Assembly: GCF_020921035.1 (NCBI RefSeq) | Contig: NC_063151.1 | Span: 32,618,934 to 32,682,933, forward strand | Direction: 5' to 3' | Length of the DNA: 64,000 nucleotides | Source of the DNA: Rhodamnia argentea | Taxonomy: Eukaryota > Streptophyta > Magnoliopsida > Myrtales > Myrtaceae | Notes under the pieces: model-generated | Told to the model about the DNA's origin: nothing | The model's database searches: none | What the model saw: the letters and a program-made list of their open reading frames with translations, nothing else | In this document: in pieces, positions 23,820 through 48,800 of the stretch | Numbering within the stretch: the stretch's first letter is position 1 | How the letters are laid out: every line of letters begins with the position of its first letter | Position numbers and translations under genes: made by a program

Positions 23820-25020
23820 AGAAATCTTAAAATTTGTAAAAAGTACAATTAAATCTTAAAATTTGTCAAGTTTATGTAATGAAATCCTTCTATTAACTAT
23901 TAACACCATAAGTTTAATTAACGGAAAATACTGACATGTCATTTTTTATTATTATTTAAATCAAAATTTATTTAAAATAAATTTTTTGTTAAATATTTAA
24001 ATTAGATAAAGAAAAACTACAATTTTATTGAAAAAATAAAACTAAAAATAAAGAAAGCAAAATGGTAGATCGCTAGTGGAGGGCTGTTGTCGCAGTCGCC
24101 CATCTCCGGAGGTGCCGGCAGCCCTGGGTGAGGCCTCGCCAGTGGCCCTCTCTAGGCCCAGGCGAGGGCGCCTAGATCTAGCGGTTTCTTCAGTCCAATT
24201 TTATCGGACAGATCACCTCATGATCTCGAGGAACTCACCCCCTTTCTCGCGGTTGTTCAAAATCACGGCCGTGCCCGACTCTGGCTTGCGGCGAGCATGT
24301 TTCGATTCTCTTCCCCCACACCTCTATGCCTTCGTCGCCCTTCCTTCTCGGAAAACTTAGGCATATGTAATTCTGGGTTCGTCGATAAGAGAGCGATCAA
24401 ATGAGAAGAATTGCGGACGCGCGAATCATGCCCACTGTCACCCTTGAACAAGACAAACGGTGCAGAGAATCAGACATGGGAATCAAATGGAACTTGGGTC
24501 ATGCGGGGCAGTGCCGATCGGAATACCCAAGGGGTGCCATGTTCTCGGGTGGGAGAGAGAGAGAGAGATTTTGGCAGGAGGATCGAATGATGGTCGGAAT
24601 ACCCAGGCGATGCGATGTTGTCGGGCGATGGTCGTCGGCCCAGGCGAGGCTGGCATCCTCCAGATCTGAGCGCCCTCGGCCAGGGCCGCTGGACCTCCTC
24701 CGGCAATGGGCGGCAACGCCCTCCACCAGTGACCTGCCATTTTTTTTTGTCAGAGGTGACTTGTCATTTTTCATTATTTATTTAAACTTTTGTTTTTGTC
24801 AGTAAAATTTTAGTTTTTCCTTTTTATTTTTTATTTATCTAATTTAAATATTTGAAAAAAAAAACTGATTTAATAATGAATGGAAAGCGAAAAAAAAAAA
24901 AGTCACGTGCATTTTCTGTTAATTAAACTGACGGTGTTAACGGAAAGACTTGATTACATCAAGTTGACAAATTTTAGGATTTGATTATATTTTTTGTAAG
25001 TTTTATGATTCAATTGCACT
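23820..25020. mobile_element. About 1.2-kb TIR element with long (about 120-bp) inverted repeats
   Basis: The left arm contains AAAATTTGTCAAGTTTATGT, GTTTAATTAACGGAAAAT and, further in, CATGTCATTTTTTATT. The right arm in reverse complement reads AAAATTTGTCAACTTGATGT, then GTTTAATTAACAGAAAAT. The interior is GC-rich in two blocks (24070-24180 and 24600-24720) carrying GGCGAGG words. The many overlapping frames at 24401-24805 are products of that composition. No transposase is seen, so the element is non-autonomous. A poly(T) micro-insertion sits inside at 24741. Confidence 0.7.
24741..24755. mobile_element. Poly(T) micro-insertion with imperfect 12-bp flanking repeat
   Basis: Insert reads T8 then GTCAGAG. 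It is flanked by GTGACCTGCCAT (24729-24740) and GTGACTTGTCAT (24756-24767), 10 of 12 identical. It matches the pattern poly(T)-G(1-4)-TC-N seen at 27228, 40373, 46072 and 48553. Confidence 0.5.
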
Positions 25021-26193
25021 TTTTATGATAAGCTTTGAAACTTTTAATGCACATATCTCAACATATTAATAGATTTATGTTTTCTTAATACTTTTTTCCT
25101 TTTATTAATGCTTGTCAGAATATAATTGTGAGCATGTGTGACGACAGCTAATATAGTGTCGGACTTCGACCTGCACATTGTGAGAGCTCATGTTGCATGT
25201 CAACCTTTTGATTTCTTACAAAATGCACTAAATGAAATTAGTTTCTTATAAAATGGTTAATTTGATTAGGTTTTTGTTCTTTCTTTCTATTGGGTTAAAT
25301 TTTGAACAAGGAGGTCCATATTTTTGGGATGTGTGGAGCTTAGAAAGAGGTGGGGATTGGGCGCAGAGGATAATAAGCTGGCTTGATGTTAATCATTTTA
25401 TCACTATGTTTTATCAGAGAATGAGATAGATACCAAGTACATAATTTTTTTTTTCAAAACCAAGTACATATTGTTAACTCAGAAAACAATCAAATAATAT
25501 AAGCAATAAATAAGTCATGCAAATAAAAGTCGATGAGCCAGTGGAAGAGTCGGCGATTCGCAACCCATGAAGAAAAGTCAATAATTTCGTAGAAGTGTTA
25601 AAAGGGTACCAACAAGTCATCCTTGAAAAGTGAAAAACGCAAAAAAAAAAAAAAGCGACCGGCCTTTTGAACCAATAATTCTTTGACACTTAGAAATGCT
25701 TAAAAATTAGCTATAGACACGTTATCATCTCGAAAGACTAGATCTTTCTTATCATCAAAGAACAATCGATGAATAGTCACCGGAACAACTAGTGTTGGGC
25801 ATATGCCAAGATCTTCCTCTAAAAACTACGACTTACAGTGCATGCCTAACTTCGGTGCCCTCAACACCATGGTTATACGGAGACAACAACAACGACGACA
25901 TGTTGAACCGTCAAAAATAGAATACCTCTAAAGAACTCCCAAATCTAAATTTAGATCAAGATCTAAATCGGGGGAGGAGAGCTTTCTTCAAAACTCAAAG
26001 AAATCATAGAATCACACTCTAGTCATGTTGTTGAATGGACTGGTGATGAGTTCTCACAGAGTTTTTAGTTGCAAGCAAATTTATTCGCCACAACAAGCGA
26101 AGAAAAGAAACAATAACGGTCGAAGTAGATTTTAAACGAGGCGAAACAAGACTCCCATATTAGACCAAGAGAGAGAAGCAAAAGGAAATTGAA
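25021..26193. other. Gene-poor interval
   Basis: No gene is recognised. 25480-26160 has moderately complex sequence without long frames. Its style resembles 31060-31800, and both may be eroded retroelement pieces, but no domain or LTR boundary supports that. Confidence 0.35.
25444..25458. mobile_element. Poly(T) micro-insertion with perfect 12-bp flanking repeat
   Basis: ACCAAGTACATA occurs at 25432-25443 and exactly again at 25459-25470. The 15 bases between are A, T10, CAAA. A 12-base perfect direct repeat around a homopolymer is what a target-primed insertion of a tailed RNA would leave. The tip CAAA departs from the GTC consensus of the other copies. Confidence 0.6.
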
Positions 26194-26942
26194 GGGTGCA
26201 TTTATTCGGCGAAAAATTACATGCAAACGGAAAATACTTTTCAGGAAAATGATTAGTTTTTCTTTGTTTGGTGATATGTGGCGGAAAATGTTTCTGGTGT
26301 TTGGATCCCTTTTGAAAAATGATTCAATCTCGTGTTTTTATATCAATTAGAAAAATTCAAAATTTAAATATTTTTTATTTCTTCTCTCTCTTTTTTTTTC
26401 ATTCTTTTTCCTTCGCCTTCTTCTTCCACACTCCTCTTCTTTCACCACTGCGGTTCTCCACCTTTTTCCTCCACTGTGACTGGCCAACAGCTGCCAAGGA
26501 CAAGCCTTAAGCTTGCCGGCCGAAGGCTAGCGAGGCTCGGCCAATTGAGGCCGGATCTGGCAAGGGTCGGCTCGGCCTGGACCTCGAGGCCGAGCCGAGC
26601 CTCGCCGAATCTAGCCTTGAGGCCGAGCCTCACCAAGCTGCGCCAATGGCTAGTCACTTGTAGGTTGCCGTCGCTGAAGGAAAAGAACAAAAGAAAACAT
26701 AGTATAATACAATAAAATATTCATTATTAAAATAAAAAAGGATATTTCAAAAAAATTGGAGTGAAGAGTTCCAAAAGTGTTTTCACCTCTTTAGATTGAG
26801 GAATTCACTTTTTTAAATTTATACATCAAATTTTTTGTTGACTGGAAATTTTTTTCATCGACTTGTCATTTTAGACGAACCAAACGGGTGAAAATCCAGA
26901 AAATCAATTCCCGAAAATCACTTTCCCCGAAACGAACACACC
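26194..26942. mobile_element. hAT-like non-autonomous element of about 750 bp
   Basis: The left end GGGTGCATTTATTCGG is matched by the right end in reverse complement, GGTGTGTTCGTTTCGG. Both continue with GGAAAAT/GGAAAG-type words (for example GGAAAATACTTTTC near the left). The interior 26500-26650 is GC-rich with GAGGCCGAGCC words. There is no transposase frame. A clean target duplication could not be read. Confidence 0.6.
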
Positions 26943-27217
26943 AAAAAATGGATAACTTGAAAATATTTCTCGTAAAAATGACGGCTGTAGCGCATATAAA
27001 AGTAAATGAACAAATTTTTTTCATCATCCATGAATATATTTATTAATTATTTCAAGCGATAAAGGTAATTTTTTTTTTTTACAAATTATTTATTTTTCGG
27101 AAAAATAAATGAAGCCAGTCGTACGCGTAACAAAATCATTGGTAAAATGAAATCACCTAAAATTGGGAAAATCTTGTCTGCGAGGGTCAGATAACTGTGA
27201 AAACACGGAAATGAAAT
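26943..27217. other. AT-rich intergenic DNA with decayed MITE ends
   Basis: No gene is seen. GAAAATATTTCTCGTAAAAA near 26958 and TTTATTTTTCGG near 27092 look like the ends of the GCGAAAAA-type small element seen intact at 49.8 kb. Confidence 0.35.
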
Positions 27218-27227
27218 CACCTAATGG

Positions 27228-27252
27228 TTTTTTTTTTTTTTTTTGGGTCGGA
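27228..27252. mobile_element. Poly(T) micro-insertion with 10-11-bp flanking repeat
   Basis: CACCTAATGG lies at 27218-27227 and again at 27253-27262, each followed by T. Between them are T17 and GGGTCGGA, nothing else. Confidence 0.65.
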
Positions 27253-27262
27253 CACCTAATGG

Positions 27263-30200
27263 TAAAAAGCAATAGAATGGAGTCATAATAATTTGAGCTC
27301 ATCATTTCGTCCGTACAACGAATGGGGAACACGTGTTTGGAACAATCGTGAAGTTTGGGTCGTTATGTGCAACGTCAATCAATGGAAATTGGGAAATATT
27401 TGCCAATTGCGTGGGACCTAATGTCTTCATCAATCAATCGCAATCTTTTCGTGCTCCAGGAACAAAAAACAAAAAGTCCATGGCCAAAGAAATTTGCTTT
27501 GTTTTCAATCTAAGCAAGAGATTTTTCCAGAAATTTGTTCACTAGATAGAATTGGAATCGCTTAAGAGCAACCCCAAACAGGATTCGGGTTACCGATGGG
27601 CTTAAGCAACAAGTTAGGTTGAATGTAAGAGTCCGGCATAGCCCTGAGCCTGTCTAGATATTGTTTCAATGGGAGCAACCCATATGCAAGATTAATACGT
27701 TCCCTTCAAAAGTTCGGCCCTGAAAGGATAAAACACGATAAAAATTCTAACATTGTATACAAATGCCTTAGAAGTTCCGTTGGCGTGTCAGTCAGACACA
27801 ATTCACATACTCAAGTGATCGGCTACTTTTTGCAAGACTCGGTGTACGGAAAATTGCAATATCACACTTTTACATTATCAAAATCATAAGGGAACCCGTG
27901 TCCGCTACGTAGAATATGACTCGAAAGATAATATTCACGATTAAGCGAGAATAAAAACTATCAATTCATTTGATAGATTGATTGATCCCTTCCACCTTGT
28001 AGAATAACCGTTGACACTTAAATTTTGACTAGCCCTTTTAGTTATATTGCATAAAAAAATTTAAACTAATTTTAGTTCTCATAAAAAAAATAATTAATTA
28101 ATTTTCATGCATAGCATATTTAATTTAGTTTAGCATGCATCGCGTTTGCATTTTGACCGGACCGGCGCTGGATGGATTTAGGCAATGGGAGCTCTAAGCT
28201 TAATTGAATAAATTGGAACAAGTCCATAAAGTTGAAAATTTAACCAAGTTCATGGTTCAAAAGTGGACAAGATCACACGTGATGGCATCTTAATTTTTGA
28301 ACAATATGTCTAATGCAAATAAGACCTTCACGTGTGAATGTATATATGTATGTATCTTCTAAACATTACAGAAGGAAAATCGCATAAGCTTGATTGGTAT
28401 AAGGGGTGCACGATTATCTGGCCATATTCACACAAGTTGGAATAGGGAAGAAGCAAAAGTGAATCTCACTTGACTGAGAGGTAATGAAAGATACATTTCT
28501 TTTCCTCGTCCAAGATTGGATACGCTGGCCTATATAGAGGAGAGAGGTCGGAGAAACGGAGGAGGGGAGAATTTTGAGAGACATTAGCTCTAAAAAAATT
28601 CAGAATTCACGAGAGAGAGAGAACTTCGGCTGAGCACTCCCGGAGGTTGACCAACGCTCATGTTGCTAGGCCCGACCCCGACGATTCATTCAACATCGCA
28701 GCTTCGATTATCCTCGTTGCAGCTTGGCAAGCAGTCCATGACCACCCCGACAAATCTTCTTGTCAAGTCTCTCGGTGTCCCTCTAGTCATCATCCTGTCG
28801 GTGGTCCAGTAAGTTCACTTGCAATTTTTAGTTGATTGGTCCTCCTTCAGTTCCTGTCCATCACGGATTTGTCCTGTGGAACACGTAACAAAGGACGAAG
28901 GAAACGTGGAGTGTCCCCTCTTGTTTTTTGTCTTCTTTCTCTATGGCCCATTGGAGGACAAGCCCCGAATTCATGGCGAATCAATTGTGACCGTGCACTC
29001 TCCTCAAGAATCCATGGATTGGGACTCGTCACCGAGTGCCGCAAGTTATTTGTCTAGTCGACCTTGACCAAGAGTAATCTCGCCGGGAGGTTCTCGCATC
29101 GTGAGCCGTCCTCGAGGAGTCCCTTGCCAACAGTCCAAAAGTTGCGAACATTGGCGCACAAGATTTGTTCAAATTCAAATTGAAAAAAAGCAATCTTGCA
29201 AGATAAGGTATAGCTTCCTATCTTGCAAATTGTACATTCATGGCAAGCATAATTTGAACATATCACATCGTATTTTGCATATCTTGCATCGAAGTGGACG
29301 TTTTTTTTCAAAATACAGGTTGATTATTGATTAGTAAAATTTCTTTCATAATCCGCAACTTGCCATGCGATCGAGAAAGTTCATCATTAAGATTATTGAT
29401 AGAATACTCGATTAGGTAAGGATTTGGGTTCAATCGTTAATCATGGGATTACGAATTAAAGATTGACTCAAATATTCGCAAAATATTTCAAAACTTGATT
29501 GATATATCCACTTTCTTGATTGAATTGATTGGCATATTCACTTTCCTAATTTGATTTGAATTGCTTTATTGTCGTATTTTTAGATTATATCCGTCGCATG
29601 ATGTACTCTCGAAAATTCTAAAAGATTTGCATTCATCCACTTTCCATATTTGAAAATTACATATCTTTTAAAATTTGCATCATGTAGATAACTGTATATT
29701 TAATCTTTTTTGTAAAATATTTAGGCTAGATCGCATTTTAGGATAAAAATTGCATGTTTAAATAGAATTTTATGTTTAAAGTAATTCGTCTTTAATATAT
29801 TAGGGTTTAGGTCAATTTAAACTCTAAAATATGCAAGATAAATATTGTTTTAGCATAGTTCTATTTTAAGAAACAAATTCATCCGAAAATTAAAAAAAAA
29901 TTCATTGCCACGTCATCTTTGTCACATCATTTACCATACCACATAGAGTCACGTGTTTAGTTTAATTAATTAATTCATCATGTAGATTGCATGCTAGGAT
30001 TGATTTATTTTTAATTGCATGTCATATAGAGCTAGTCATGTAGTTTAATTAAATTCATATGCATTCTTAGGATAGTTTGCATTTATTTATGCCATTGCAA
30101 TTAGAATAGAATTGATGCATCTCATTTACGTTATTCGCCTTTTAAAAAGCAAAAATCAAAAAGTGAGAACAATAATTACGTGGCGCATGCTTTCTTGATT

Positions 30201-30600
30201 ATATTGATTTTTGGATGTTCAATTAATTGATTGTGCACCTGCATGATAACATTTGTTAGTGAGTTAGGTTAAAATCAATTAATGTTGCCTTCTCAAATGA
30301 TTTTTTATGAAATAAAATGGTACCGAAATAGCGTTAGAGTAATCTAGCGTAACAAAGTCTCCAACCCTTAATCTCCGATTTGTAGAAATAATATAGTCTT
30401 CTCGTTAATTTACTTAGGTTTCTAATTAACCTACTAAAAACGATTAGTGGCAACTTCAATTAAAAACATTTGCATGTTGATCACATTGAATCTTAAGTTG
30501 CGATTTGGTAGGGCTTGAGAGAGCCCGAGTTAGGTTAATTAAATAATTAACCCGATAATCCATTAATTTCGAAATTTTTCAAATTTTTAGGTCGCGACAA
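27263..30600. other. Gene-poor interval; possible decayed LTR-retroelement or non-coding transcript
   Basis: No reverse transcriptase, integrase or other domain is readable. A TATA-like CCTATATAGAGG at about 28529-28540 is followed by GA-rich DNA and then a moderately GC-rich stretch (28640-29100) with short frames but no known product. From about 29880 to 30600 the sequence is strongly AT-rich with repeated TAATTAATTA and AGGTTAATTAAATAATTAAC words, and ends in TAGGTCGCGACAAAG. That tail is reminiscent of plant retrotransposon termini, but I could not define paired LTRs. Confidence 0.3.
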
Positions 30601-31020
30601 AGTTGAGTCATAAATCTTTTCACATTTTACGAGTTGAGACATGAAAATTCTTCAATATTGTTTTTCTAATTTTTTTAAACTTTTTTTCCTTCTTTTATTT
30701 TTATTGTGGTTGGCGAGGGCAGCAAAGCCCTCACTTAGTGATTTCGAAACAGGAAAGCCAAAAAAAAAAAAGTAAAAAAAAGTAAAAGAAAGAGAAAAGA
30801 AAATAATAATTCTAAAAATTTAAGAAAATTGATCACGTCGGTGCCGGTTGTGCTACGTAAAACAACTGTCTTTCATGTTAGTGGTTTTTGACCAAAATTG
30901 GCTCGATTGAGTCAATTAGTAAAACATAAAAATATTTATAACTCAATTGACACAATTAAAATGTTTAATACTAAATTGACAAAAATATAATAATTTTAAA
31001 ATTTTTTAGAAAATTTTTCC
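30601..31020. mobile_element. Truncated TIR element
   Basis: GTTGAGTCATAAATCTTTTC at the left is mirrored near 30920-30960 by the reverse of AATTGAGTTATAAATATTTT. The right end (reverse complement AGGAAAAATTTTC) resembles the end of the element at 4744-5564, but the corresponding outer left arm is missing. The core includes GGCGAGGGCAGC near 30713. Confidence 0.5.
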
Positions 31021-31909
31021 TAGTACTTACGTTGTCCCAAAAAGATCTATTTCCATCCATCCAAATCATTTCTCCATGCAAAAATGTCAGTTAGAAATAA
31101 AAATTTTAGTTCCTTTTTTTTTTGTCATAATAAATAGGATTTCATTCACTTCCTCAAAATACAAGAGAAAAATATTATTTAATTATAAATCAAGGCAAAT
31201 CTCAGATTACTTCAAAACAAAACAAGTTTTAGATAACACGAGAAATCGTCAAAACAAGGTTACAGGTCACGCGCTCAAACAACATATTTGTGATTTCTTC
31301 ATACCAAAATCGACGACCGATCAACGAATCCGTAATCGGGAATGAGCACACACCGTAGTCTTTATCTATTGCTACGGCAATGCGCGCCTAAGTTTGGCAT
31401 CCATAATACCATCGTTGAGCAGAGCATAAAGGTTGAACGAGTACAGATCCGACACCTTTGAGAATGAAACATTCACGAAACTCCTCTAATTTCTTTTGAA
31501 ATTGGACTTGTTCACAACGAAACTTGAGGCAAGTGAAACCTTGAAACATGAACGCACAAAACCCCAAATCTGGACTGAAGCGGGATAGAAATCTCCCATA
31601 AATGGGAGAAAGAAGCTTCCAGATCCGGACTAAATCGGAAGAGAAAAGCTTCCAATGGGAAAAAAGTAAAAAAATAAAATAGAGAACTAAAACTTCCTAA
31701 GAAAAAGGGGAGGGAAGGGAGAGATCTAACTCAAACCCTCCATTCATAAAGATCGAAGAAGAAAGTTGTGTGAAGATAAGAGGGAGAGGAGAAAGAAACT
31801 AGGGTCGGCTAACAAAGAGCTCATTGAATTGTGTTTTAGTCCCATTGAATTGTGTTAGTCCCATTTGGCATAAAATAATTTGTGGGGAAATTGTTTTGCT
31901 TATAAGCAA
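31021..31909. other. Intergenic stretch, nothing recognised
   Basis: No gene is recognised. A T10-GTCATAA tract at about 31114-31130 resembles the tips of the micro-insertions but has no readable flanking repeat. A purine-rich tract occupies 31660-31800. Confidence 0.4.
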
Positions 31910-31917
31910 CTAAAAAA

Positions 31918-32261
31918 TAGGGATAATTGCCAAAAATTCCCTAAACCTATTTCAGTCTTAAATATTTTATATTTGTGTCAATTTAATCATACCCTTTGCA
32001 TTTGTACCAATTTAATCATTTCGGCAAATTTTGGCTAAAAATCGCTGACTTGGCAATATCGGCGCTAACGTTCGGCTAGAGGTGTGGCCTTGCTCGCCAC
32101 TAGCAATGGCTGGTCGGAGCTATTGTCTGTCGGAGGTGTAGTTAAGGAAGAAGAGAAGGGGAAAAAATGTTTAGGACTGAATTGATAAAAAGAAGAAGAA
32201 GAAGTTTATGATAGAACCGGCATAGTTACAATAGATTTAGGACTTTTTAGGCAATTTTCCC
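31918..32261. mobile_element. 344-bp MITE with 8-bp flanking repeat
   Basis: The left end AGGGATAATTGCCAAAAATT is matched by the right end in reverse complement, GGGAAAATTGCCTAAAAAGT, and both run on into CCTAAA(T/C)CTATT. CTAAAAAA is repeated at 31910-31917 and 32262-32269; being A-rich, this could be partly chance. The core has GTGTGGCCTTGCTCGCC-type words. No coding capacity. Confidence 0.7.
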
Positions 32262-32269
32262 CTAAAAAA

Positions 32270-33110
32270 CAATCTCTTATTAAGCACTTTTACATCATTG
32301 GAACATGGAAAAATTTGCAAAAAAGCGGTGGAAATCAAGAAAGAGAATGGAGAAAGAAAATTGAGCAAAGCGCACTGGTAATATTGTCTTAAAATATTGT
32401 CCCGAGACTTTTAAAATTGAGCAAGGCATATGTACCGCTTTGAGTTGAATATCTTACGTGAACAATCTATATGTAATCCTTTTTTATCCACCATTCAAAA
32501 CCTATTATATGGGACGCCAACTGTTGATTTAAATTAGTGAAAGGACGGTATTGAACAATTTTCGATAGTCCGGAGATTATATTGAAGATGTACCAAAAGT
32601 ACAAAAATCACATTGAACAAATTAAAAATTCACGAATGTTATTTCACATTGTATCAGAGTTAAGAGATCATTTGTATAGTATTTCCGCTTTTATATGTTA
32701 AAAATCACTATTTGTCCCACTTTTTTAATACTTTTTCAATATTACTCCAACAACAAAATGATAAAAACATGAATCTATTCTCGAATTATAACGAGCACAT
32801 CTCTTGCGGTATTCCATTCCATCCCTTCGCTCCTACATGAAGCCCACGTGCTTGCCCCTACACTAGCATCCATGAACACATGCAGATAAAGTCTACTTAC
32901 TAATTATACTTACACAATTGTTAGGTCACTTAATGACTTGTTAATTCAATGCAAAGTTAACAACTTCCAACCGTTACCATTTATTACAGCGCCTACGACA
33001 TTTACCAATTACGGGCGGATCGATTTCAATAAATTAGGGCAAAGCGGTGCAGGAAAGTTCCCAATGCTCTGTCACGGATTCCGTCAACTCCAAGTCTCTC
33101 AACCTAATCC
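32270..33110. other. Upstream region of the ketoacyl-CoA synthase gene
   Basis: AT-rich with no gene. The last few hundred bases are presumably the distal promoter of the downstream gene. Confidence 0.4.
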
Positions 33111-33113
33111 CAA

Positions 33114-33121
33114 ATATAAAA
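33114..33121 (+). promoter_or_regulatory. TATA box of the ketoacyl-CoA synthase gene
   Basis: ATATAAAA within CAAATATAAAAGGAG lies 67-74 bases before the ATG at 33188. That puts the start site near 33145-33150 with a leader of about 40 bases. Confidence 0.6.
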
Positions 33122-33187
33122 GGAGACGAACCCTCCGATATTTCAAATCCCCACCAAAACCAGAAACCCTAACGGTGCTATTAAGAC

Positions 33188-34618
33188 ATGAAGCTCATCA
33201 AACCCTTCTTCCGAATTACCTCCACGACGTTCCTCTTCGTCTCCACTTTCCTCCTCCTATCCGCAGTCGCTCACTCTCTCTCCTCGTTCGTTCCTTTCGG
33301 ATGCCTCGCCATTGTCGTCCTCTCGTGCTACTGCTACTCTCGCCCGACCCCGGTTTTCCTCATCGGCTACTCGTGCTTCAAGCCGAGCTCCGACCGCAAG
33401 TGCACGTACGTAGCCTCGGAGAGCCTCGTGCGCAGGAGCCGGCGCTTCAGCCCCGAGAGCGAGGAGTTCATGCGGAAGATATACCTCAAGTCGGGCCTCG
33501 GGGACGAGACGTACGGACCGCCCTTCATGTTCCGAGCCGGCTACGAGGAGGCGAGGCTGGAGTCCGCCGTGCAGGAAGCCCGGGAAGGCATCTTCTCGGC
33601 CGTCGACTCGCTCCTCGCGAAGACCGCCGTCCACCCGCTTGACATCGACTTGCTGATCGTCACGTGCGGGAGCTTCTCGCCCTCGCCGTCTCTCTCGTCA
33701 CTTATTGTGAATCATTGCAAACTCAGGCCCGACGTCAAGGTTTATAACTTGAGCGGCATGGGATGTAGCTCCGGCGTGCTCTCTATAGACCTGGCTGCGA
33801 AAATCCTGCGTCACGGCGGAAATGTCCGTTGTGCCCTAGTGGTGATAACAGAGAGCATCAGCCTGAACTGGTACTTTGGGGATAACCGGTCGATGCTCGT
33901 GACCAACTGCATCTTCCGTGTCGGTTGTGCCGCCGCGTTGTTGACCAACGATCCAGCTCGCCGCCCTGCAGCAAAGTTCGAGCTCGTTCGCTCGCTCAGG
34001 ACTCACCACGGGGCAGACGACCGTGCTTACAGGGCCGCGTTCCAGGAAGAGGACGACGAGGGCAACACTGGGATTGCGCTCACCAAGGATTTGATTCGCG
34101 CCGCCACGACTAACCTCGGTGAGCACATCAAGATACTCGCTCCCTGGGTCCTGCCACCAAGCCAGCTCGCCTCCTACGCCTGCTCAGCGCTTGTCTCGGC
34201 ACTATCCCGCAGGTATGCGAAGCCTGCGGTGCCGGACTTCACGACGTCCTTCGAGCACATTTGCATACACACGGGCGGGAGGGCAGTGATCGAGCAGGTG
34301 GGGCGGGTTCTGCAGCTGAGCGAGGAGGCCACTGAGCCGGCTCGGATGAGCCTGCACCGGTTCGGCAACACGTCGAGCAGCCTCGTGTTCTACGAGCTGG
34401 CGTACCTAGAAGCGAAGAGGAGGATCGAGAGAGGGGACAGAGTGTGGATGCTGGCGTTCGGGACTGGATTTAAGGTGGGAAGTTTGGTGTGGAGGTCGCT
34501 GAGGAGTTCAGGCGACGTAGAGGAGGAGGATAATCCGTGGAGCGATTGCGTTTATAGTTACCCAGTCAGCCAAGTGCCGGGTGAAAGTTATCCTGTTGAT
34601 CTCCATTCCAAGTCATAA
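33188..34618 (+). CDS. 3-ketoacyl-CoA synthase (fatty-acid elongase condensing enzyme), single exon, 476 aa
   Basis: Condenses malonyl-CoA with long-chain acyl-CoA, the first step of very-long-chain fatty-acid elongation for waxes, cutin or suberin and lipids, at the ER (family knowledge). The N-terminus has two hydrophobic segments (about 10-29 and 35-50). The thiolase-like fold follows with NLSGMGCSSG (catalytic Cys193), RTHHGADDRAY (about 271-281), HTGGRAVI (His361) and HRFGNTSSS (His390, Asn394). The C-terminus has NPWSDCVYSYPV. Cys, both His and Asn are all present, so the enzyme looks active. Length is normal for plant KCS proteins, and being intronless is common in the family. Which of the 21 Arabidopsis KCS it matches is unclear; the C-terminus looks more like the shorter KCS7/15/21 group than the CER6 group. 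The exon is notably GC-rich, causing long shadow frames on both strands. Confidence 0.95.
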   Translation: MKLIKPFFRITSTTFLFVSTFLLLSAVAHSLSSFVPFGCLAIVVLSCYCYSRPTPVFLIGYSCFKPSSDRKCTYVASESLVRRSRRFSPESEEFMRKIYLKSGLGDETYGPPFMFRAGYEEARLESAVQEAREGIFSAVDSLLAKTAVHPLDIDLLIVTCGSFSPSPSLSSLIVNHCKLRPDVKVYNLSGMGCSSGVLSIDLAAKILRHGGNVRCALVVITESISLNWYFGDNRSMLVTNCIFRVGCAAALLTNDPARRPAAKFELVRSLRTHHGADDRAYRAAFQEEDDEGNTGIALTKDLIRAATTNLGEHIKILAPWVLPPSQLASYACSALVSALSRRYAKPAVPDFTTSFEHICIHTGGRAVIEQVGRVLQLSEEATEPARMSLHRFGNTSSSLVFYELAYLEAKRRIERGDRVWMLAFGTGFKVGSLVWRSLRSSGDVEEEDNPWSDCVYSYPVSQVPGESYPVDLHSKS

Positions 34619-35966: not shown

Positions 35967-35984
35967 ATGAAGCTGCTTGTGTAA
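35967..35984 (+). other. Five-codon upstream ORF before the PDE338-like start
   Basis: ATG AAG CTG CTT GTG TAA, ending seven bases before the main ATG at 35992. If the leader includes it, it could lower initiation at the main start. Confidence 0.5.
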
Positions 35985-35991
35985 AGTGAAA

Positions 35992-38900: not shown

Positions 38901-41103
38901 GACGCGTGGGTGAGTTCTGCTAGCATTTTCTGCTGCTCTTTCCATTTTTTGTCTGAACTTCTCTTCAGATTTATGTGTTACCTGCAGGAGATGCTGCATC
39001 TACAAGAGGGGACACTTCTTGATGGAACTGTAAAGAAAATTTTACCTTATGGAGCTCAGATAAGGATCGGTGACACTAATAGAAGGTGAGATGCAATTCC
39101 TTAAGTTTGAAAGTGATCTCAGAGGGTAACAGAAACTTTTATTGTTTTCTCAATCACATTGTTATTTTGTTGGCCTCAAATACATATAGTGGCAGGAGGC
39201 ATGGAAATTAATAGAAGGCTACCTCTTTAAAGCTCTCCATTATCATACTTGGTGGTTTGTTGGAAGTATGAACATCGTATTTGTCCGGAAAGTTCCATGG
39301 AAGTAAAGGATGTAGAACTGCAGAGTTGTTGGTCTTTTATGAAGTCTATCTGTATTGTCAGCACAAGCATGAACTGCTTATTGGGAAAACTATCACTATT
39401 GCCTTCAATTTTATGTAGCAAATATGGCAAAGTCCAGCGATTTGTCGCGAGGTTTATTAATAAGGGAACACCGGATTCCTAGCTTATCATCCCTTGCTTA
39501 ATCCTATCTTCCCCTTTTCGATCACATGATAGTGGTTGAAATTGATGCTAATATTATATGCTGTTTGAGGAAAACATATTTAATCTATTTGTCTAGTGAC
39601 AGGACTAACAGGTTTTTCTGGACTGTTGGTGGCCCAAACACATTTTTCCCTTGCTAGTATGCAATCAAAATATAATCTTTCCTTATGCACGTGTTTCCCA
39701 TTGTGATACTTCGAATAGATAAAAGATATGATAGAAAGGACACAAGACTAGCTCTAATGAGACTGTACTTGAAATTTCATCCTCATTTTGTGGATACCAA
39801 ATATCTTTGTGCTCAAAACTGTCTAATTTGCTTGTTGATTGTAAAAGCTTAAAACACGCTAATTCTAATTGGCTGGCCTTGAGTGGCTTACTATCTGGTC
39901 TGTCTGTGCTGATGTGCCTGCATTGCCAATACCTTCTTTGTTTTATCCAGTGGTTTGTTGCATATCTCGAAGATTACTGCTACCCGGATCACTTCTGTCA
40001 GCGATGTCCTCTCAGTTGATGAGAAGGTCAAAGTACTGGTTGTGAAGTCAATAATTCCCGATAAAATCTCTCTCAGGTAATTGTGGAAGCAAATACCTTA
40101 TAATGTTCATTTATGCTTGTCTAGTGCTTTGCCACTTAGCCTGAATTCTTGATAATGTGAATGCTGAATGGAGATCATTGACCAATTTAAGTACTTCGAA
40201 CATTTAGTTTCAATAATTGGACAAGCTCCGGTCGAGCTCCTTTCATTTGTGAATTCGCCTCTCTTTGGTTAAATAAACTTGTTTTCAAGTTCAACAAATC
40301 GCACCTCTATATCGAGTTCTCTCTGAGTGAGTTTGAATCGATGAAATTAAACTTGTTTTCAAGTTCAACAAATTTTAGATCCAAAAAAAGTTCAACAAAT
40401 CGCACCTCTATATCGAGTTCTCTCTGATTGATTTTGAATTGATGAAATTAAACTTGTTTTCAAGTTCAACAAATTTTAGACGGGGAAAAAAAAAAAAAGT
40501 TCAACTATCGCCCCTCTTTATCGAGTTCTCTCTGAGTGAGTTTGAATCAATGAAATTAAATTGCTCTGAGTGGATATCTTACAAGCAAAGAAATACTGCT
40601 GAAATTTTCTAAGTGATATTTCCTAAATTCCTGCTTGCTTATTAGCTCCATATCCTCATCGCACGTCATGAAGCTCTCTCGATGCCCTTTTTCTTTCAGG
40701 TTAACTCGAACTAACATCATCCAGTCATCGGATATGCCTCTAACTTGTTGCATTTGTTGATTTCAGCATTGTGGACCTTGAAAGCGAGCCTGGTCTATTT
40801 ATATCAAACAAAGAGGTAGGGATATTACTGTGGGTGATGTTTCCTTGGCACTGTGCCATCACGGTTGCATAACATAAGCACGAGATGTTAACTAACACGT
40901 GTCTCTCCCTTCCGCTTAATACTTGGTTTGTTCAGAAAGTATTTTCCGAGGCAGAAATGATGGCGAAGAAATACAGGCAGAAGCTGCCTGCCGTAATTAG
41001 AGCTCCCAAGTCGGAGGCCTCTGCGACTCTGCAGGTACCTTTGGATAGCGAAGCTTCATTTTATGCAAATTGGAAGTGGTTCAAATTTGACAGTGAGCAA
41101 TAA
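35992..41103 (+). CDS. PDE338: Plastid S1-domain RNA-binding protein, PDE338-like (8 exons, 520 aa)
   Basis: Expected to bind chloroplast RNA and support processing, splicing or translation of plastid transcripts; loss in Arabidopsis gives pigment-defective plants (family knowledge, from memory). Exons, all GT-AG and in phase: 35992-36885, 37272-37346, 37496-37567, 38829-38909, 38988-39085, 39951-40076, 40767-40815, 40936-41103. Residues 1-75 are Ser-rich and basic, a plausible transit peptide, and an acidic linker follows. Three S1/OB-type stretches are visible: GDFVVGVVVSGNENRLDVNV (about 178-260), EVKITEWNTGGLLTRIEG (about 306-345) and DGTVKKILPYGAQIRIGD to GLLHISKI (about 385-425). The protein ends NWKWFKFDSEQ, as in this family. 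An upstream frame from TTG at 35977 is ignored because ATG at 35992 is the first in-frame ATG. The last exon runs open to TAA. Intron 6 holds tandem repeats. Confidence 0.9.
40373..40389. mobile_element. Poly(A) micro-insertion in intron repeat copy 2, empty site preserved in copy 1
   Basis: GTTCAACAAA at 40363-40372 is repeated at 40390-40399. The 17 bases between are TTTTAGATCC plus A7. Copy 1 of the tandem repeat has a single GTTCAACAAA (40289-40298) running straight into TCGCACC, so it shows the pre-insertion state. Confidence 0.7.
40474..40498. mobile_element. Same poly(A) micro-insertion inherited in repeat copy 3
   Basis: TTTTAGACGGGG plus A13 sits between GTTCAACAAA (40464-40473) and GTTCAACTAT (40499-40508). 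The shared TTTTAGA start shows it was copied with the tandem repeat and then diverged in tail length and tip. Confidence 0.6.
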
Positions 41104-43745
41104 CACGAGCAAGCCAACCTCGATGTGTTGCTACAGAGCCTCACTCGGTGGAATTCTAGATTTTCTGTAGCTTCCCCTTTCCTGCGAGATAGTGTATTTA
41201 TCCCATTGCGATTATTAATCAATGGCCCTTTTTTTGTCTAATTCGAATTCACTAGTACCTATAATACCTAATGAAGGGCAAACTGATTTTACCATAGAGG
41301 CCAACGATAGACAATAACTTCATTGATATTACAGAAATAGATTTCAAAATTAACAGTCAATTTCATAAAGCTTACTGTCGTGCCAGCTGCGGGAATAGTT
41401 TTCAGGCAAGTCTGTGGGCTAGTGTCGTCGAAGAGGCTTGACAGGAGTGGCCCGGTGAACCCGCTTTGACCAGTGCCAAATCTTACTCAATGGAGCTATG
41501 GGTCCTCCCGCATTCATTGGCTACCAGTGCCATGTAAGGGCCATGGTTTACAATCAATAGTCGGGAAATTGGTGTCGTTGTGGTGCCACGAGATGGCGAT
41601 TAGGCGTTGGTAGGAGCAGCAGAATGATGATGAGTCCCTATAATTGATAGATTCTATTAGGGAGGGGATGCCGAGGTTCGAGTGATGGTTCCCTAATAAG
41701 AGATCGGCGGAAAGCAAGTCTTCTTCCTTGCATTGCCACCGTGCTCTTTGCCCGGCCTCTCCAACCTTATTCATTTTTTTAGGGCGAGTGGGTGTCCTAG
41801 GTTTGTGTATTCTTCGGCAACGGGGTACTCCAGGAGATAAGGTTATGAGAGCAAGTACCTGAGGAATAAAACTATATGTTTGACAGGCTGTGATACTTGA
41901 TTGGCTCATCTTCGGTGCCTTTGCTGGAGTGACGGGCAATGCCACCGAAAGGGTGATTCGGAGATACTCGATCATTAGATAGATTATGAGTTCCGAAATG
42001 AACAAATGTTCTTTTCGGAAAATGTAGAACAATAGACTTACCGGAAGAATAGCTATTAAAGGCGGAGGAGCCAGTAACTCAATTAAGATATTTCTCTTAA
42101 TCTAATTAATCGCGGACGACGCATCTTTAACGAGGACAACTGCTTAGACCATACATGATTGATCTCAGTTTGACCCCCATTTTCTGAACCAAAATGAGAA
42201 CATCTCCGAACAGAGCAAAGTCCTTTTGAAGTCCCCCTTTTCTCATTACGAATGACCACGGTGAATACTGATGAATGCCTGGCCATGATTGACCTCGCAA
42301 TCTGAGGATGTAAAACGGCGTGGTCTTGTCGCCTTCCTGAAGTCTAAGCTACATGTTCTGTGGCTAGGGTTTGGGGCTCCAAAAAAATTTTATAAATGGG
42401 AAAAGGTCAAGAAAGTTGCCCTAAAGTCTGTCTAACTTAGGTTTTAAAACACTAATGCATCACTCCCCTTTTCTTTCCTTCCGAGACTCTGTTCTTTTTT
42501 AACTTTGGGCGCTAAACAACCGGGCATCCGAGCAAATTATGTTAATTTAGACCGCGAGTCCTCTAATTCAAAGTACATAAATGGCACTAGACTCTATATC
42601 CTACGCCCTTCACGTGCCTCACTGAGATGATGCGATAGAGTTCGAGTTGTTTTAATTCGCGAGAGGGAGTCATTTGTACCCATCTCGGGACGGGATCACT
42701 TGATATCAAAGACCTTTATCGATTTATCTTACTATGAAATGCCATGTTGGCGTAACATGTGATATCAACTTCTCGTGAAAACCATTTTTCCTCGCGCGAC
42801 ATAGGGCCACACTTTGCTGATAAGGCGAGCGAGATCGTGATCGTTTTGAGTTCTTGAAAAAAAAAACAAAAAATTACGTAAGATCTACAGTCAGGGGCAG
42901 CTCCATCAAACCCGGAAAAAGGGAAAGATGAAAAATATTACAGTGTCTGATAGTAAATCCAAATTGTTGTGGGCTGGTTTATCTTCAGCACATAATGTAT
43001 GAAGTTCAGGAGAATTGGAATGCTTGTCTCTAAAGAAACTACCGTATGCTACTTAATCATTGACAACGTAATTAAGCATAGATACTATGATAATTGAGTG
43101 TCCCCTTGTGTAGAGCCACTGCAGGGTGCAGACCTATGTCCATTTCTTTTTCGGGGTTTCAAGCTCGGTTACAGCGATAAAATCCTCCTTTGTTTATATT
43201 CGAAATTCATGTTGTTTTCACTCTCCTGCGCAGCGCTAACTCCCTTGAAATCTTAGGGGCCTGGCGAACCATATAATACAACAAAATCTTAGAGTATAGA
43301 AAAAAAAGATTAGCTGGATGCCAAAAATATGGCAGAAAATAAGCGGCGCATTAACGTAATGCATGGGACACCGCGAGTTTCGAAAAGCTCCACCGAGCTT
43401 CTCTTGAAAGGTGCCCACAGTATCATAACTTCAAAAAAAATTATTATGTGGAAATAATCTCATGTGTATATAATAATGTTATTTAGTCAAAGCGATGAAT
43501 TAAATGGTCCGCTTATCTTGGTGATGATCCAGCAATATTGGTGGTCTAAATGTGGAGTAACCCTTATCATGTGGTTGGCTATTGAGTGAATCAGAAGTTT
43601 TGTGTTTGGTGTCCAATGTAAAGGGTCAGCATATGTTAGCCCTCTTTTAACCACAAAAACGTTATGCCAGTAGTGTGGAGAATCATATTTACATGAGTAT
43701 CGATTCTTTTTTCACAAAACCAGTCTTGTGGGGTCATATATATAA
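41104..43745. other. Intergenic interval with an unexplained minus-strand open stretch
   Basis: 41104-41300 is the likely 3' UTR of the PDE338-like gene. 41300-42300 is less AT-rich than usual intergenic DNA and holds a 172-codon minus frame (42032-41514) and a 67-codon one (42286-42083). A TATA-like TTATAAA near 42390 is placed to drive the minus strand. Neither frame shows a domain I know. The stretch could be a decayed gene, a non-coding transcript or an inserted organellar fragment. 42400-43745 shows nothing recognisable. Confidence 0.3.
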
Positions 43746-44297
43746 CAGGGGTGAGCATGGTTCCAGGGTAGAAACGGAAATCGGAGAATTGAGACCGTAG
43801 AAACATGCAGGTTCCAATGTATCCATGGTAAGTTCCGGGTTCAAAAAATTGGAGAACCGATTCTGACAAGTAGGTTTCAAGTTTTTCAAGAGGTGGGACC
43901 TGGAACAAGCCTTTGTGTTTTTCTTGTTACATATCTTCACGTGATCCTGCGATATTCTATAGCGTCCGATGATGAGTGTGCAATCTAAAACCATTAGTTC
44001 GAGCTTCCATTTTCGGCGATATCCACGACCGAGACTTTTACTTTGTTAATGTTTCATATTCTTCGTCTGTCTAAATATGAATTATGGTCAGTGAATTGTA
44101 GCGGCAAATGGTGGACATTAGAGGTGATAATTCACTACAACTGTTCAATTAAGAATACATGTGTAACCTGAGTAGGTTCAAGGTTTTAAGCTATGCGGGG
44201 TAAATTTCAGGTTTCAAAAAACAGGGAACCAATTTCGATGGATTGATTTTAAGTTCCCACATGGAACCTAGAAGGAACTCAGAACTGCTCACCCCTA
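43746..44297. mobile_element. 552-bp non-autonomous hAT element with perfect 8-bp target duplication
   Basis: The left end CAGGGGTGAGCA and right end TGCTCACCCCTA form hAT-type terminal repeats (C/TAGGGGTG). Inside, GGTTCCAGGGTAGAAAC and its inverse GGAACCTAGAAGGAAC extend the symmetry. ATATATAA flanks both sides exactly (43738-43745 and 44298-44305). No open frame of note is present, so it would have been mobilised by a transposase from elsewhere. Confidence 0.85.
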
Positions 44298-45126
44298 ATA
44301 TATAAACACTCGGATGCTCACCAAACTATGTGTTTTTGAAGCTTAGCCCGGACGGTAGCCATTGATGTGTCAACATTAGGAGATGAATTACGTGAATCTT
44401 GATCCTGAACGAATTAGAATAGTGATATTGTATGGGTTCTAAGATATTTATTGGATAATATATAAGTCCAACAACGTTTCTTTAGGGTGTGACCCAAGCA
44501 AAGCATTTGAATTTAGCTTTCTAAAACTATAAAATGCTACTTGTAGATCTCATCTTGCGATTTTGTTTTTGATTTTCTAAGTTGAGATTGCTGATCCAAT
44601 AGTTGCAATCCTTGTAAAAGCATTCATCTTACTATATAACTGCTTGCACAAAAAAAAAAGAGTAACTTTTGGTTATTATCGACATATATGATAGACTTAA
44701 TCGATGAAAGCAGAGTATGGTCATTTATGAATATACTTATTGATAACTTGAAGAGAATCAGTAACTTGCCAATAAAGTTATCGGCGACACACAACTTTGA
44801 AATTAATCGACGAAGTCATCGATATTGATACCAAGCAATTCACGGGAGGATAACCGACGGCGGGTTATTTCGCCGCTATTTTATGATTGTTGCAACGTCT
44901 CATAATTACTAGAAAGTTATTTCTTTTTTCGGCAACCTTTTATAACTTCTATTTGTAACATCCGTTTGTAACCTCTGCTTGTAACCTTCATTGATAATCG
45001 TCGATTGTATGCTTTAAATAGTTAGTTGTGTTCTTTAGACATCCTCCACACACAAACGAACAAATCTACTATCTTTTAGTTATCTTTACCTTCCCACATT
45101 GTATTTTAGTTTCCAAACTCGCGCCA

Positions 45127-45350
45127 TCGATTAAATTCTGACGTGTTTCTTAGTTGTAGTTTTCAGATCCGCGTTATCGATTAAATTTTGGTGAGTATAT
45201 TTATCCTGGGTGTTGCGTTGTCAATTAAATTCCGGTATAGCTTCTTGCATTATCAAGCTCTATTGTTGATTAAATTCCGGCACAGTTTGTTATGCTCGGT
45301 CCTGTTGAAGTGGCTGTATTTCTAAGTTTGGTCATCGATTAAATTTCGGC
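45127..45350. repeat. Five degenerate repeats of a TCGATTAAATTCCGGCAC core
   Basis: Cores start near 45127, 45178, 45221, 45265 and 45334, spaced 51, 43, 44 and 69 bases. Each has ATTAAATT preceded by TCG, TCA or TTG and followed by CTG, TTGG or CCGGNA. Confidence 0.65.
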
Positions 45351-46071
45351 ACTGTTTGTGTTGTTGCAGTTGTATTTGGAGTGAAGTTATTGTTGTTCTT
45401 GTCTACTTGTGATATTCCCTATCAGGAATCGCTGCAGAACCCACTCTAATAAAGATTGAAAAACGTTTTTCGATGAAAGATATTTCGTTGTGGGATCTAT
45501 TTCGTGTGAAACAATAACATAGAAAAGTCTTCAATCAATTTTCTCTTGGGTATAAACTTGAAGTCTTTGAAATTTTCTTAAGACTTCAGAAATCAACAGT
45601 ATGCATAAGTTGACCATACATTGCATAACTGTACGCGTGTCACCTAATTTCTTCGCAGCTTATAAGTTGGCTCACTTCATTTCACCAATTTCCATGTTAA
45701 AAAGTTTTCCGGAGGAGCTGATCAGAAGACATTTCTTCACAACTTATGTCTTACTAAAAGAAGCTGCAACCTTAAGAAATAATTGGTAATATTGGCTAAC
45801 TAGTTTATAATGAGGTTTGGCCCCTTGAGGAGGACTTTACCTGCATGTATTTGGGATTCACACACATATGATAAATACTCAAAATAGCCGCATATATGAG
45901 ACAAAAGAAACTAATATTCCTGCTTAAATAAACAGCTAATGGAATTTTCACAACCTGAATAGATTCTTTCATGTAGCTATTGTATGAAGAGATTACATAT
46001 TAAAAGTTGTAAAATGATTGTGGAAGAAGCTACTATCGTTATGGAGTCATTAATAAATAACATTGTACTAG

Positions 46072-46092
46072 TTTTTTTTTTGGTCGGAAACA
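46072..46092. mobile_element. Probable poly(T) micro-insertion
   Basis: T10 followed by GGTCGGAAACA lies between TACTAG (46066-46071) and TACTAG (46093-46098). The repeat extends as AACA-TTG-TACTAG versus AACA-TACTAG if a 3-base indel is allowed, so the boundary of insert and repeat is uncertain. The GGTCGGA tip matches the copy at 27228. Confidence 0.4.
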
Positions 46093-46599
46093 TACTAGTT
46101 GAATGGATGATACTTATCGCGGCAAAACCGTTTCCACGGTATCAAAATGAAGTGAAAACATTTGCTTGAGCGGCATTTATTTCATACTTGTAGGTTGATC
46201 CATGTGAATCGAGCCTCTACAAGGGGATATCGATATGGATCTTTACTTAAGTAATAGCTTCACAAACTCTCTCCCTCTTGATGTGCGAGATTAGGGTTTT
46301 TTTCAGGGAGAGAAAATTTCCTCTATATGCCAGATCACAAGGATTCACTACAAAATACTTTATTAATATAATGATGTAGTAAAGTACCTAATTTGCTGCT
46401 ATATGTTACTTTCATTTCCAACATTACTTGATTCTCTGTAAAATTCCTAGTTTACTGTTTTGAGTTACTCTGATTCTTGACATTACTCATCTCAACTCTT
46501 AAGTCCCTTCTATCTTTATATGCAACGAGCTCGGAGTATTTACCAAAAGAACGAGCTACCACATAAGTTTACGTGACAAAACTCTAATATTTCTTTTCA

Positions 46600-46823
46600 T
46601 TGGATCCGTTTGTTTCTCGAAAAAATAAGTGATTTGAAAATATTTTCTTAAAAAAGATCGTATATGATATTTGAAATAATTAGTTAATGAAAAATATTTT
46701 CATTACCGATAATAATTAGTTTCTAAATATTTACATAGATGGTGAAAATATTTTTCGATCGTTCATTTTCTCGAGTGATATAAGCTATCAATGACTATTT
46801 TTTTTTAAACAAACCAACCAAAG
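46600..46823. mobile_element. Small AT-rich MITE of about 220 bp
   Basis: The left end GGATCCGTTTGTTTCTCG is matched by the right end in reverse complement, GGTTGGTTTGTTT. Inner AT-rich words such as AAAATATTTTC are mirrored around the centre. No target duplication is clear. Confidence 0.5.
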
Positions 46824-46930
46824 TCTAATGTTTGCTTAAAAATGAAAGTATATGTCTCGTGCGGCTGAATTGTTAGTATGCAGTCAAAGCCTAAAACCCT
46901 AATCGGGACCTGTGCCCTAATATAACAATT

Positions 46931-46969
<39 letters not shown>

Positions 46970-48540
46970 GTGACTGAAGAAATTTTTTCATTTTATTTAT
47001 CTTTCCCTCTTTAGCTCCACTCCCAAAACAAACCCACCACCTCTTCCTCGGAAACCAAATCGCAACCCCATCAACAGTTTAATTTTCACCAGCTTACACC
47101 CATAAAAAGACAGTGAAAACAGTAATTTCTTTAGCAGAGCACAGCATTTTTTTTTTTTACCACACCCCAATGAGCCCCTCCCCTCTACAACCACGCCCAG
47201 CCATTAAGAAACCCTAGCTTTTTTACATTATGAGGGCAGACCACGTTCGTAGGGAACACATTTCTTTATTGCATTTAAGACATACATCATTATCTAATGC
47301 AAAAGACATTGAACTGAGGGTTGCTGCTGCTTTCATTTCACCCTTTATTTCTTTTTTTCACCACCTTTCACAATCTCCTAAGTTTGCCTCGCCCTCTTAT
47401 TATCACCAAGGTTTTATTTTCTTGTTCTTGTTTGGCCTTCTCTTCCCTAGGAGTTAGGCTCTGCCATATCTTTTCCACGATCTCCCATACGGTGTCTCTG
47501 AAATTTTTGATCCTATCCGTACCTGTTTGCTAAGAAAACCCTAAAAATATAATCAACCTACCCTCTCTTGCGCTCGGTTCTTGCTTTAACTAAAAACCCT
47601 AATTTGCTGATCACTGTGCATGAATTTCCCCCCCATTAATTGTACTTCCTCCTGGCTTTGGAATTTCGATGGACGATGCATAGACACATGGTACGTTAGA
47701 TGAATGAGGCATCGTACTTGGTTTGTTACAAAACTCAAGTGAAAGCTAAAAGATTTGATCGAGCTTTGCGCCTTCAAAGGAGTATCCAAAGGAGGCGGCA
47801 AAGATTGTCGTGACGGTGGCCACATTGTCTAGTTAATTGTGGGAGCATAGCATGCTATTGATAATTTCTTTTTTTCACTTACCATCGATGTTTTAGGATA
47901 CGTTTACCTACGCAAATAAGGAGGAGTAATGTTGAGTGATATGGAATTATGATAATTGTTCGTCCAAGTCGACCATACATGTGCTACACATTTTACTTGA
48001 AAAACTCATTATACTTATCTGTGGTATCTAATAGAAATGGACTCATAAAACGCGCTGTGAGATCACATGAAATTTCTTCTACTTAATGCATTCTTATCGG
48101 GGAGTATCATTTTCGAAATGTTAAGATATTTCATCAACCGATACATTTGAACTATTTCGAAATAACCCAAGAGTGAGTCATATCACGGTGGATTATCTAT
48201 CTACCTTTTGCCCTATGGAATTCTCTAGAACCCAATAGTTACGATTCCTTGTAAATTCTACATATAAATTAACAACAGAATGACTCCGGAATGAATATTA
48301 GCTTTATTAAATCGAGATCTTTACCTCTCCGACTTTCTAATTAACTGGAAAAATTTTCTTTTCTTTTGCTGGTGGTCATGTCAGTTGAATCAATTGAAAG
48401 GTATAATCACATCTTTTTGATAAAGCTCTATTACACTAATTAAAGAATCTAGTACTCAATTGCATTTTGGATATAAAGATTCAAGAGTTCAATGCCCTAT
48501 TCCCTGAATCGAGAATAAGTGCACAGGCCTCACACTTAAA
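46824..48540. other. Intergenic interval with CT microsatellite and AAACCCTA words
   Basis: No gene is recognised. Telo-box-like AAACCCTA words occur near 46894, 47208, 47537 and 47596, which in plants often mark promoters or leaders of housekeeping genes, but no coding exon follows. Short frames at 47230-47533 and 47586-47825 lack domains. Confidence 0.35.
46935..46967. repeat. (CT)n microsatellite
   Basis: About 16 uninterrupted CT units. Confidence 0.95.
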
Positions 48541-48552
48541 TGGTGAAGTAAC

Positions 48553-48574
48553 ATTTGACCCCAAAAAAAAAAAG
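48553..48574. mobile_element. Poly(A) micro-insertion with perfect 12-bp flanking repeat
   Basis: TGGTGAAGTAAC occurs at 48541-48552 and 48575-48586. The 22 bases between are ATTTGACCCC, A11 and G. This is the opposite orientation of the poly(T)-GGGGTC form at 27228. Confidence 0.65.
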
Positions 48575-48800
48575 TGGTGAAGTAACGGAACTAATTTTAG
48601 GTCATGTCTTATCTCTACAATCGCAATACGACTGAAATCATTTTTAGAAAAATATTTTTCATATTCTTTATTTTTCATTCAATTATTTTTTATTTTTTGT
48701 CTTTCACCGCCGGTGGTTATGCGATACAGTTGGAATCAAGTTCTCTCAATAGAGACATAAACAAAGTAGCTGGGGAACCAAACTAGGCATAAGTTGCTAA

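Follow-up and report, generated by a model that had tools for sequence, protein, structure and literature searches.

Tail-plus-tip insertions in Rhodamnia argentea as probable, extremely 5′-truncated copies of zf-RVT LINEs

We analysed a 64,000-nucleotide stretch of the Rhodamnia argentea genome (contig NC_063151.1, positions 32,618,934 to 32,682,933; hereafter the window, whose own coordinates are used below), in which an initial annotation had listed very short insertions consisting of a homopolymer and a few further bases. We consider it highly probable that these insertions are extremely 5′-truncated copies, here called stubs, of plant long interspersed nuclear elements (LINEs) of the zf-RVT type, which retain the tail and the last few bases of the LINE 3′ end (the tip). 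A class of tail-plus-tip insertions exists in the 346.7-Mb genome (74 contigs), as was settled by counting exact pattern matches, with the same pattern reversed as the control. Thus, T9GGGTCGG gave 169 matches against 2 reversed, T9GGTCGG 653 against 15, T9GGTCGGAA 308 against 3, T9GGTCATAA 89 against 2, and T9GGTAAGG 1077 against 6. The initial annotation had proposed such a search for T runs followed by G(n)TC, and the first two patterns indeed display a large excess.

Insertions and flanking repeats in the window

The seven tracts listed by the initial annotation, each an A or T run of 7-17 bases with a small tip between direct repeats, are all present in the sequence. They are given here with their target-site duplications (TSDs), together with the tandem array that holds two of them.

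24729..24767, minus strand: stub 24741; TSD 24729-24740 / 24756-24767, 10/12 (GTGACCTGCCAT / GTGACTTGTCAT); insert 24741-24755, CTCTGAC-A8/9
25432..25470, minus strand: stub 25444; TSD 25432-25443 / 25459-25470, 12/12 (ACCAAGTACATA); insert 25444-25458, TTTG-A10-T
27218..27263, minus strand: stub 27228; TSD 27218-27227 / 27253-27262, 10/10 (11 with one tail base); insert 27228-27252, TCCGACCC-A17
40274..40588, plus strand: tandem array of ~74-bp units; the first is a paralogous empty site, later units hold the insert
40361..40400, plus strand: stub 40373 (array unit 1); TSD AAGTTCAACAAAT 40361-40373 / GTTCAACAAAT 40390-40400; tip TTTAGATCC 40374-40382; A7 40383-40389
40462..40505, plus strand: insert 40474 (array unit 2); repeat AAGTTCAAC 40462-40470 / GTTCAAC 40499-40505; AAATTTTAGACGGGG-A13
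46066..46100, minus strand: stub 46072; TSD TACTAGTT 46066-46073 / 46093-46100; insert TGTTTCCGACC-A8 to A10
48541..48586, plus strand: stub 48553; TSD 48541-48552 / 48575-48586, 12/12 (TGGTGAAGTAAC); insert 48553-48574, ATTTGACCCC-A11-G

The two perfect 12-mer repeats described earlier were found at 25444 and 48553. The more general description of 10-12-bp duplications holds for these two sites and for 27228, whereas the repeat at 24741 is imperfect (10/12) and that at 46072 is limited to 8 bp, including two that could belong to the tail. The tandem array also provides a paralogous empty site for the insertion at 40373, namely its first unit (40274): this unit has the target once and without an insert, and the second unit has the insert and the duplication. 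The inserts at 40373 and 40474 lie in the same array, have TTTTAGA in common and are not necessarily independent, as one event may have been copied by tandem duplication, with the 40474 insert being a diverged copy. The two inserts differ (AAATTTTAGACGGGG-A13 at 40471-40498 versus TTTAGATCC-A7), although the units preceding them are 97% alike.

Each A-run of at least 7 bases on either strand was examined for a direct repeat, exact, not of simple sequence and 8 bp or longer, across a tip of at most 15 nt. This strict test was passed by 5 of the 118 runs (4805, 25444, 27228, 40373 and 48553), compared with a mean of 0.127 (maximum 2) in 2000 permutations of the downstream flanks and with 0.31 per 117 for non-A placebo anchors, 47 of 17,701 of which passed, and the excess of flanking repeats anticipated by the initial annotation is thus present. 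The site at 4805, absent from the earlier list (window 4789-4833; perfect 15-mer, T10-GTCG, tip CGAC), was rejected as an insertion since sister repeat copies carry the T-run too, which leaves four strict stubs. Sites 24741, 40474 and 46072 fail the test and are counted as weaker. A looser score returned nine sites against 0.77 expected, including 4805, 16116 and 49890, none of which is counted as a stub. For inserts of 16-50 nt in the window, no excess of flanking repeats was detected; the strong match for inserts of 51-200 nt proved to be the tandem array, and the matches at 201-600 nt a tandem duplication of ~600 bp at 2973-4172 (blocks 82-91% identical). Long-range TSD matches in the window likewise showed no excess (16 versus 6-17 in shifted controls). 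The tips themselves are enriched: [CT]GAC(1-4) precedes 6 of the 46 A-runs of at least 9 bases, versus 102 of 8226 runs of 2-6 (p=2.6e-5), and 4 of 46 when 4805 and 31114 are removed (p=0.003).

Tip boundaries and the 3′ ends of zf-RVT LINEs

We then determined where the insertions end. Among 100 listed places of the 169 T9GGGTCGG matches, one of which is the 27228 stub, 88 loci were fetched, and 86 remained after two segmental duplicates had been dropped. In 39 of these 86, a TSD (score at least 8; median length 13 bp) ends 0-8 nt before CCGACCC. Extra tip bases numbered 0-3 at 33 sites (0.00 in permutations), 4-8 at 6 (0.03), 9-23 at none (0.03) and 24-95 at 2 (0.71). The tips of the 39 sites are TCCGACCC (12), CCGACCC (9), ATCCGACCC (5), TTCCGACCC (3) and others (10), with a length of 8.6 ± 1.5 bases next to tails of 14.1 ± 3.0 (mean, SD), and the two lengths show no significant correlation (rho 0.24, p 0.14). 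In a position logo of 66 loci, T makes up 73% and 53% at the two positions that precede CCGACCC, and the composition farther out is approximately that of the background.

LINEs of the zf-RVT type (PF13966) occur commonly in this genome; 150 of 907 candidates were scored, and several have open frames of 1000-1400 amino acids. From 20 LINEs, selected by the length of their open frames, we fetched the 1.3 kb after zf-RVT. Eight of the 20 end in GACC, GAC or GATC followed by poly(A), five in TACC followed by poly(A), and seven have no clear end. The ends are as follows, where L-numbers denote sequence stretches fetched from the same genome.

L071: GTCTTTTTCCGACC-A7
L072: TTCTTGTTTGGACC-A16
L075: TTGTGTTTCCGACC-A20, final bases TGTTTCCGACC
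L079: ACGTGCCTTTGATC-A14
L082: GTTTCTTTTCGACC-A11
L083: GCATCTTCATGACC-A20
L087: TTTATCTTATGACC-A17
L088: GTTTATCTTATGAC-A10
L077, L078, L080, L085, L086: TACC-poly(A)

An RVT_3 (RNase H-like) domain follows zf-RVT in all four GACC-type ends examined and is absent from the one TACC-type end examined; we take this order of zf-RVT and RVT_3 to be that of plant L1-clade LINEs, an assignment from the C-terminal domains. In L071, L072, L075, L083, L087 and L088, the stop codon of the open frame starts only 22-34 nt ahead of the poly(A) tail.

The tips indeed correspond to such ends. The tip at 46072 equals the last 11 bases of L075 (11/11), that of a stub in L030 the last 8 bases of L087 (8/8), and that at 27228 the last 8 bases of the LINE copy L019 (8/8). 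L019 is itself a CCGACCC-A10 locus, in which 68 nt of LINE body, 91% identical to L071, reach the tip. Because L019 thus holds an L071-type body up to the tip, the CCGACCC class can be tied to the zf-RVT LINEs. The initial annotation had suggested looking for a longer element with the 3′ end NGACC(C)(A)n, and zf-RVT LINEs with this end exist in the genome. Its view of the tracts as one family did not hold, as several LINE subfamilies contribute: the tips CCGACC(C), ATGACC and TTACC were all counted genome-wide, and the LINE ends TCGACC, GATC and GGACC were also seen.

An independent set gave the same narrow tip range. It comprised 66 loci and the window (321,171 bases, with CCGACCC matches removed), in which 248 A-runs of at least 9 bases were examined at a TSD score of at least 9. 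Observed and expected TSD-flanked runs were 1 and 0.00 for tips of 0-3 nt, 13 and 0.14 for 4-15 nt, 1 and 0.35 for 16-30 nt, and 2 and 0.28 for 31-60 nt. A motif like TTTAGGATTGAATTGG is present in three of the four hits outside 4-15 nt, which resemble internal repeats of a different element. Of the 13 runs, three lie in the window, including the rejected 4805, and ten in the other 257,171 bases; the tips of the remaining twelve are TTATGACC, TCTTTGACC, TTCAACC, TTCCTTACC, TTCGATCC, TTCCGAT, CATTTGG, GCTCTTCGCC, ATTTCGACCAC, TTCGACCACCACC, ATTTGACCCC and TTTG. Since ten stubs in 257,171 bases amount to about one per 26 kb, the genome would hold roughly 10,000 stubs, a figure that is possibly too high because each locus had been selected for the presence of a stub and that the thresholds on A-run (at least 9) and TSD push lower. 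In L022, L010, L042 and L049, two tail-plus-tip tracts stand close together or share one target; in L049, TCCGACCC-A15 adjoins TTCCGAT-A12 with the same repeat at both. Such pairs suggest target hot spots.

Truncation point and candidate causes

The insertions have TSDs of variable length and a 3′ tail that follows the LINE's own terminal bases, and coding LINEs with the same end are present. Because tail, TSD and LINE 3′ end occur together, target-primed reverse transcription is the mechanism that we propose. The LINE machinery would first nick the target, where the poly(A)-tailed RNA would be primed. Reverse transcription then copies the tail and about 7-11 bases of the LINE 3′ end, such as TTCCGACC(C) or TTATGACC, as the identity of tip and LINE end in some cases and the narrow boundary show. 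Finally, the cDNA end would be attached to the target sequence upstream, in many cases at T or TT, and the observed TSDs, most of them 8-19 bp long, would result from fill-in. The idea of the initial annotation that a tailed RNA was retroposed with almost no body is therefore supported by the tail, the TSD and the tips that match LINE 3′ ends.

Since tail length varies without significant correlation to the near-constant tip, the stop seems to be fixed relative to the RNA position and not to cDNA length. We tentatively propose, at slightly less than even confidence, that LINE reverse transcription has an abortive phase, in which the enzyme, once the tail is copied, very often halts at a nearly constant point, 7-11 bases inside the RNA body, while its aborted product is integrated with a normal duplication, so that the stub would be the main LINE product at about ten thousand per genome. 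Our preferred cause of the stop, itself doubtful, is a roadblock or a failed transition from initiation to elongation of the LINE's own enzyme near the RNA 3′ end; a protein roadblock, interception by end joining or a short RNA remnant as the template may also be considered. The RNase H-like domain may be suspected insofar as the tested GACC-type LINEs have it, whereas a stub with a TACC-type tip exists (L023, TTCCTTACC) and the one TACC-type LINE examined lacks the domain. A stem-loop beside the tip was rejected as the cause, as the last 45 nt of 13 LINE ends fold at -7.7 to 0 kcal/mol with no common hairpin.

In an unlikely alternative, the template would be an independent polyadenylated RNA of very small size that is reverse-transcribed up to its 5′ end, for example a remnant of RNA decay shielded by the LINE protein or a SINE-like transcript of minimal length (SINE, short interspersed nuclear element). 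The narrow boundary independent of tail length would fit such a template, as would the body test, in which the 88 CCGACCC loci (duplicates included) were compared with 29 fetched LINE stretches and with each other and no clear LINE body was found in 86 of 88. In this test, L019 was a clear longer copy and L044 a probable one (31 nt, 84%, in line with the tip, E 3e-4), and the body matches of L028, L049, L099 and L101 (E 0.14-1.7) were too weak to judge. Against the short template, the tips differ among subfamilies and several track LINE 3′ ends. A LINE-RNA decay remnant is a possible template and would be a variant of the truncated-LINE explanation. A SINE was rejected as the source, as the TSD-bounded inserts at the 39 sites consist of the tail and a tip of at most 13 bases, too short for pol III promoter boxes.

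We also regard as improbable that 5′ truncation is of the ordinary, broad kind, with stubs seeming dominant only after selection or erosion has removed the longer insertions. Truncated copies of greater length are indeed present, including L109 (~125 nt, TSD AATAAGCGAGTTTCT) and L110 (~250 nt). However, purging of kilobase inserts leaves the gap past the tip unexplained (39 sites at 0-8 nt, none at 9-23), and the independent set shows the same imbalance (13 versus 1 versus 2 for tips of 4-15, 16-30 and 31-60 nt). Long copies of the L075 type are few: with the last 281 nt of L075 as the query, the genome yielded 17 matches of at least 139 nt and one 30-nt match (L112), the latter being a stub with the TSD CTTCGTTCGTTT. 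Double-strand-break repair can insert filler, and a repair process that adds T tracts was the other origin offered by the initial annotation; it is very improbable here, as it predicts neither tips equal to LINE 3′ ends nor a narrow tip length. Chance or slippage, producing short tandem duplications beside homopolymers, has a negligible probability in view of the permutation, placebo and reversed-pattern controls and the tip identity to LINE ends, even though direct repeats are frequent in the window (99 of at least 9 bp) and single sites may be chance, as 4805 illustrates with a perfect 15-mer and a T-run unrelated to insertion.

Several points weigh against the interpretation as LINE stubs with a narrow stop. 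The window tips at 24741, 25444, 40373 and 48553 have no exact counterpart among the fetched LINE ends, and tips in the independent set span 4-13 bases. At the chosen threshold, 45 of the 86 T9GGGTCGG sites have no TSD; these may represent old insertions, LINE bodies or another kind of site. This pattern demands 7 tip and 9 tail bases, so that shorter tips go unseen and the mean tip of 8.6 bases is biased upward, and the support from T9GGTCGG, T9GGTCATAA and T9GGTAAGG consists of pattern counts. The body test covered 29 LINE stretches and would miss the bodies of LINEs outside this sample. The drop to 7 sites for T9GGTCGGAAACAC (12 tip bases, L075 type), five of them on LINE copies found with the L075 query, informs on L075-type copies only, as other CCGACC LINEs differ there. 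The TACC class retains 269 of its 1077 sites at 11 tip bases and is less sharply short or richer in long copies; TACC-type LINEs too seem to leave many short or long tails. The signal of an L1-endonuclease site (TTTT/AA) is indistinct: 3 of 6 window sites fit it, and the base with which the TSD begins shows a weak preference for A (54% of the 39 sites versus 31% in the background, partly by construction).

Other features of the window are listed below. An Rfam scan at the gathering threshold gave no matches, and neither did a scan of viral contigs with one pattern.

50853-53795: leucine-rich-repeat receptor kinase
33188-34618: FAE1/CUT1-type synthase
within 12465-13373: Exo_endo_phos2 domain

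Relation to known LINE insertions

If the abortive-phase reading is true, stubs would be missed by repeat annotation, being shorter than the usual search words. They record LINE activity and targeting that annotation would overlook. Near genes, they could introduce poly(A)/poly(T) tracts, and between related plants they would serve as clean presence/absence markers. The cause of LINE truncation is a long-standing question, which becomes testable with a class of insertions that stop, within a narrow range, at a known position of the template. LINE 5′ truncation points are normally spread, whereas truncation in the stubs piles up 7-11 nt from the tail.

The closest likeness is to the simple poly(A)/poly(T) insertions attributed to the L1 endonuclease in human disease genes, which are homopolymers with little or no body (PMC3219598). 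Of 48 earlier events cited in that source, three were simple poly(A) insertions, and a further insertion of ~120 T in exon 25 of NF1 is interpreted as an Alu, L1 or processed pseudogene that was severely truncated (PMC3219598). The stubs likewise have a tail and a TSD but retain a short LINE tip. The human cases described there are single de novo events with long tails and no reported diagnostic tip, whereas we find hundreds of tract-plus-tip motifs, in which the tails of the sampled set comprise 9-22 A and the tip indicates the source LINE. The 5′-truncated copies of ZfL2-2, whose inserts in DT40 cells are longer without Ku70 or Artemis, resemble the stubs in keeping the 3′ end, losing the 5′ end and frequently having a TSD (PMC2666801).

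Among plants, L1-clade LINEs end in poly(A), and one monocot lineage has a conserved 3′ end with a hairpin (Ohshima 2013, PMC3747384), unlike the 13 LINE ends folded here, which have no strong shared hairpin beside the tip; the passages of that article consulted here contain no mention of stubs. In maize, the last 30 bases of the LINE consensus were used as a screen, and SINEs had to be told from severely truncated LINEs (PMC2774510); a 30-base probe would not be expected to detect tips of 7-11 bases. Among the matches listed from the open-licence literature, titles and abstract openings report no genome-wide class of tail-plus-tip LINE stubs in plants. In humans, both simple poly(A) insertions and extreme 5′ truncation are already known, and what is new here is the narrow stop past the tail and the abundance of the stubs, which seem to outnumber the recognisable copies of their source LINEs.

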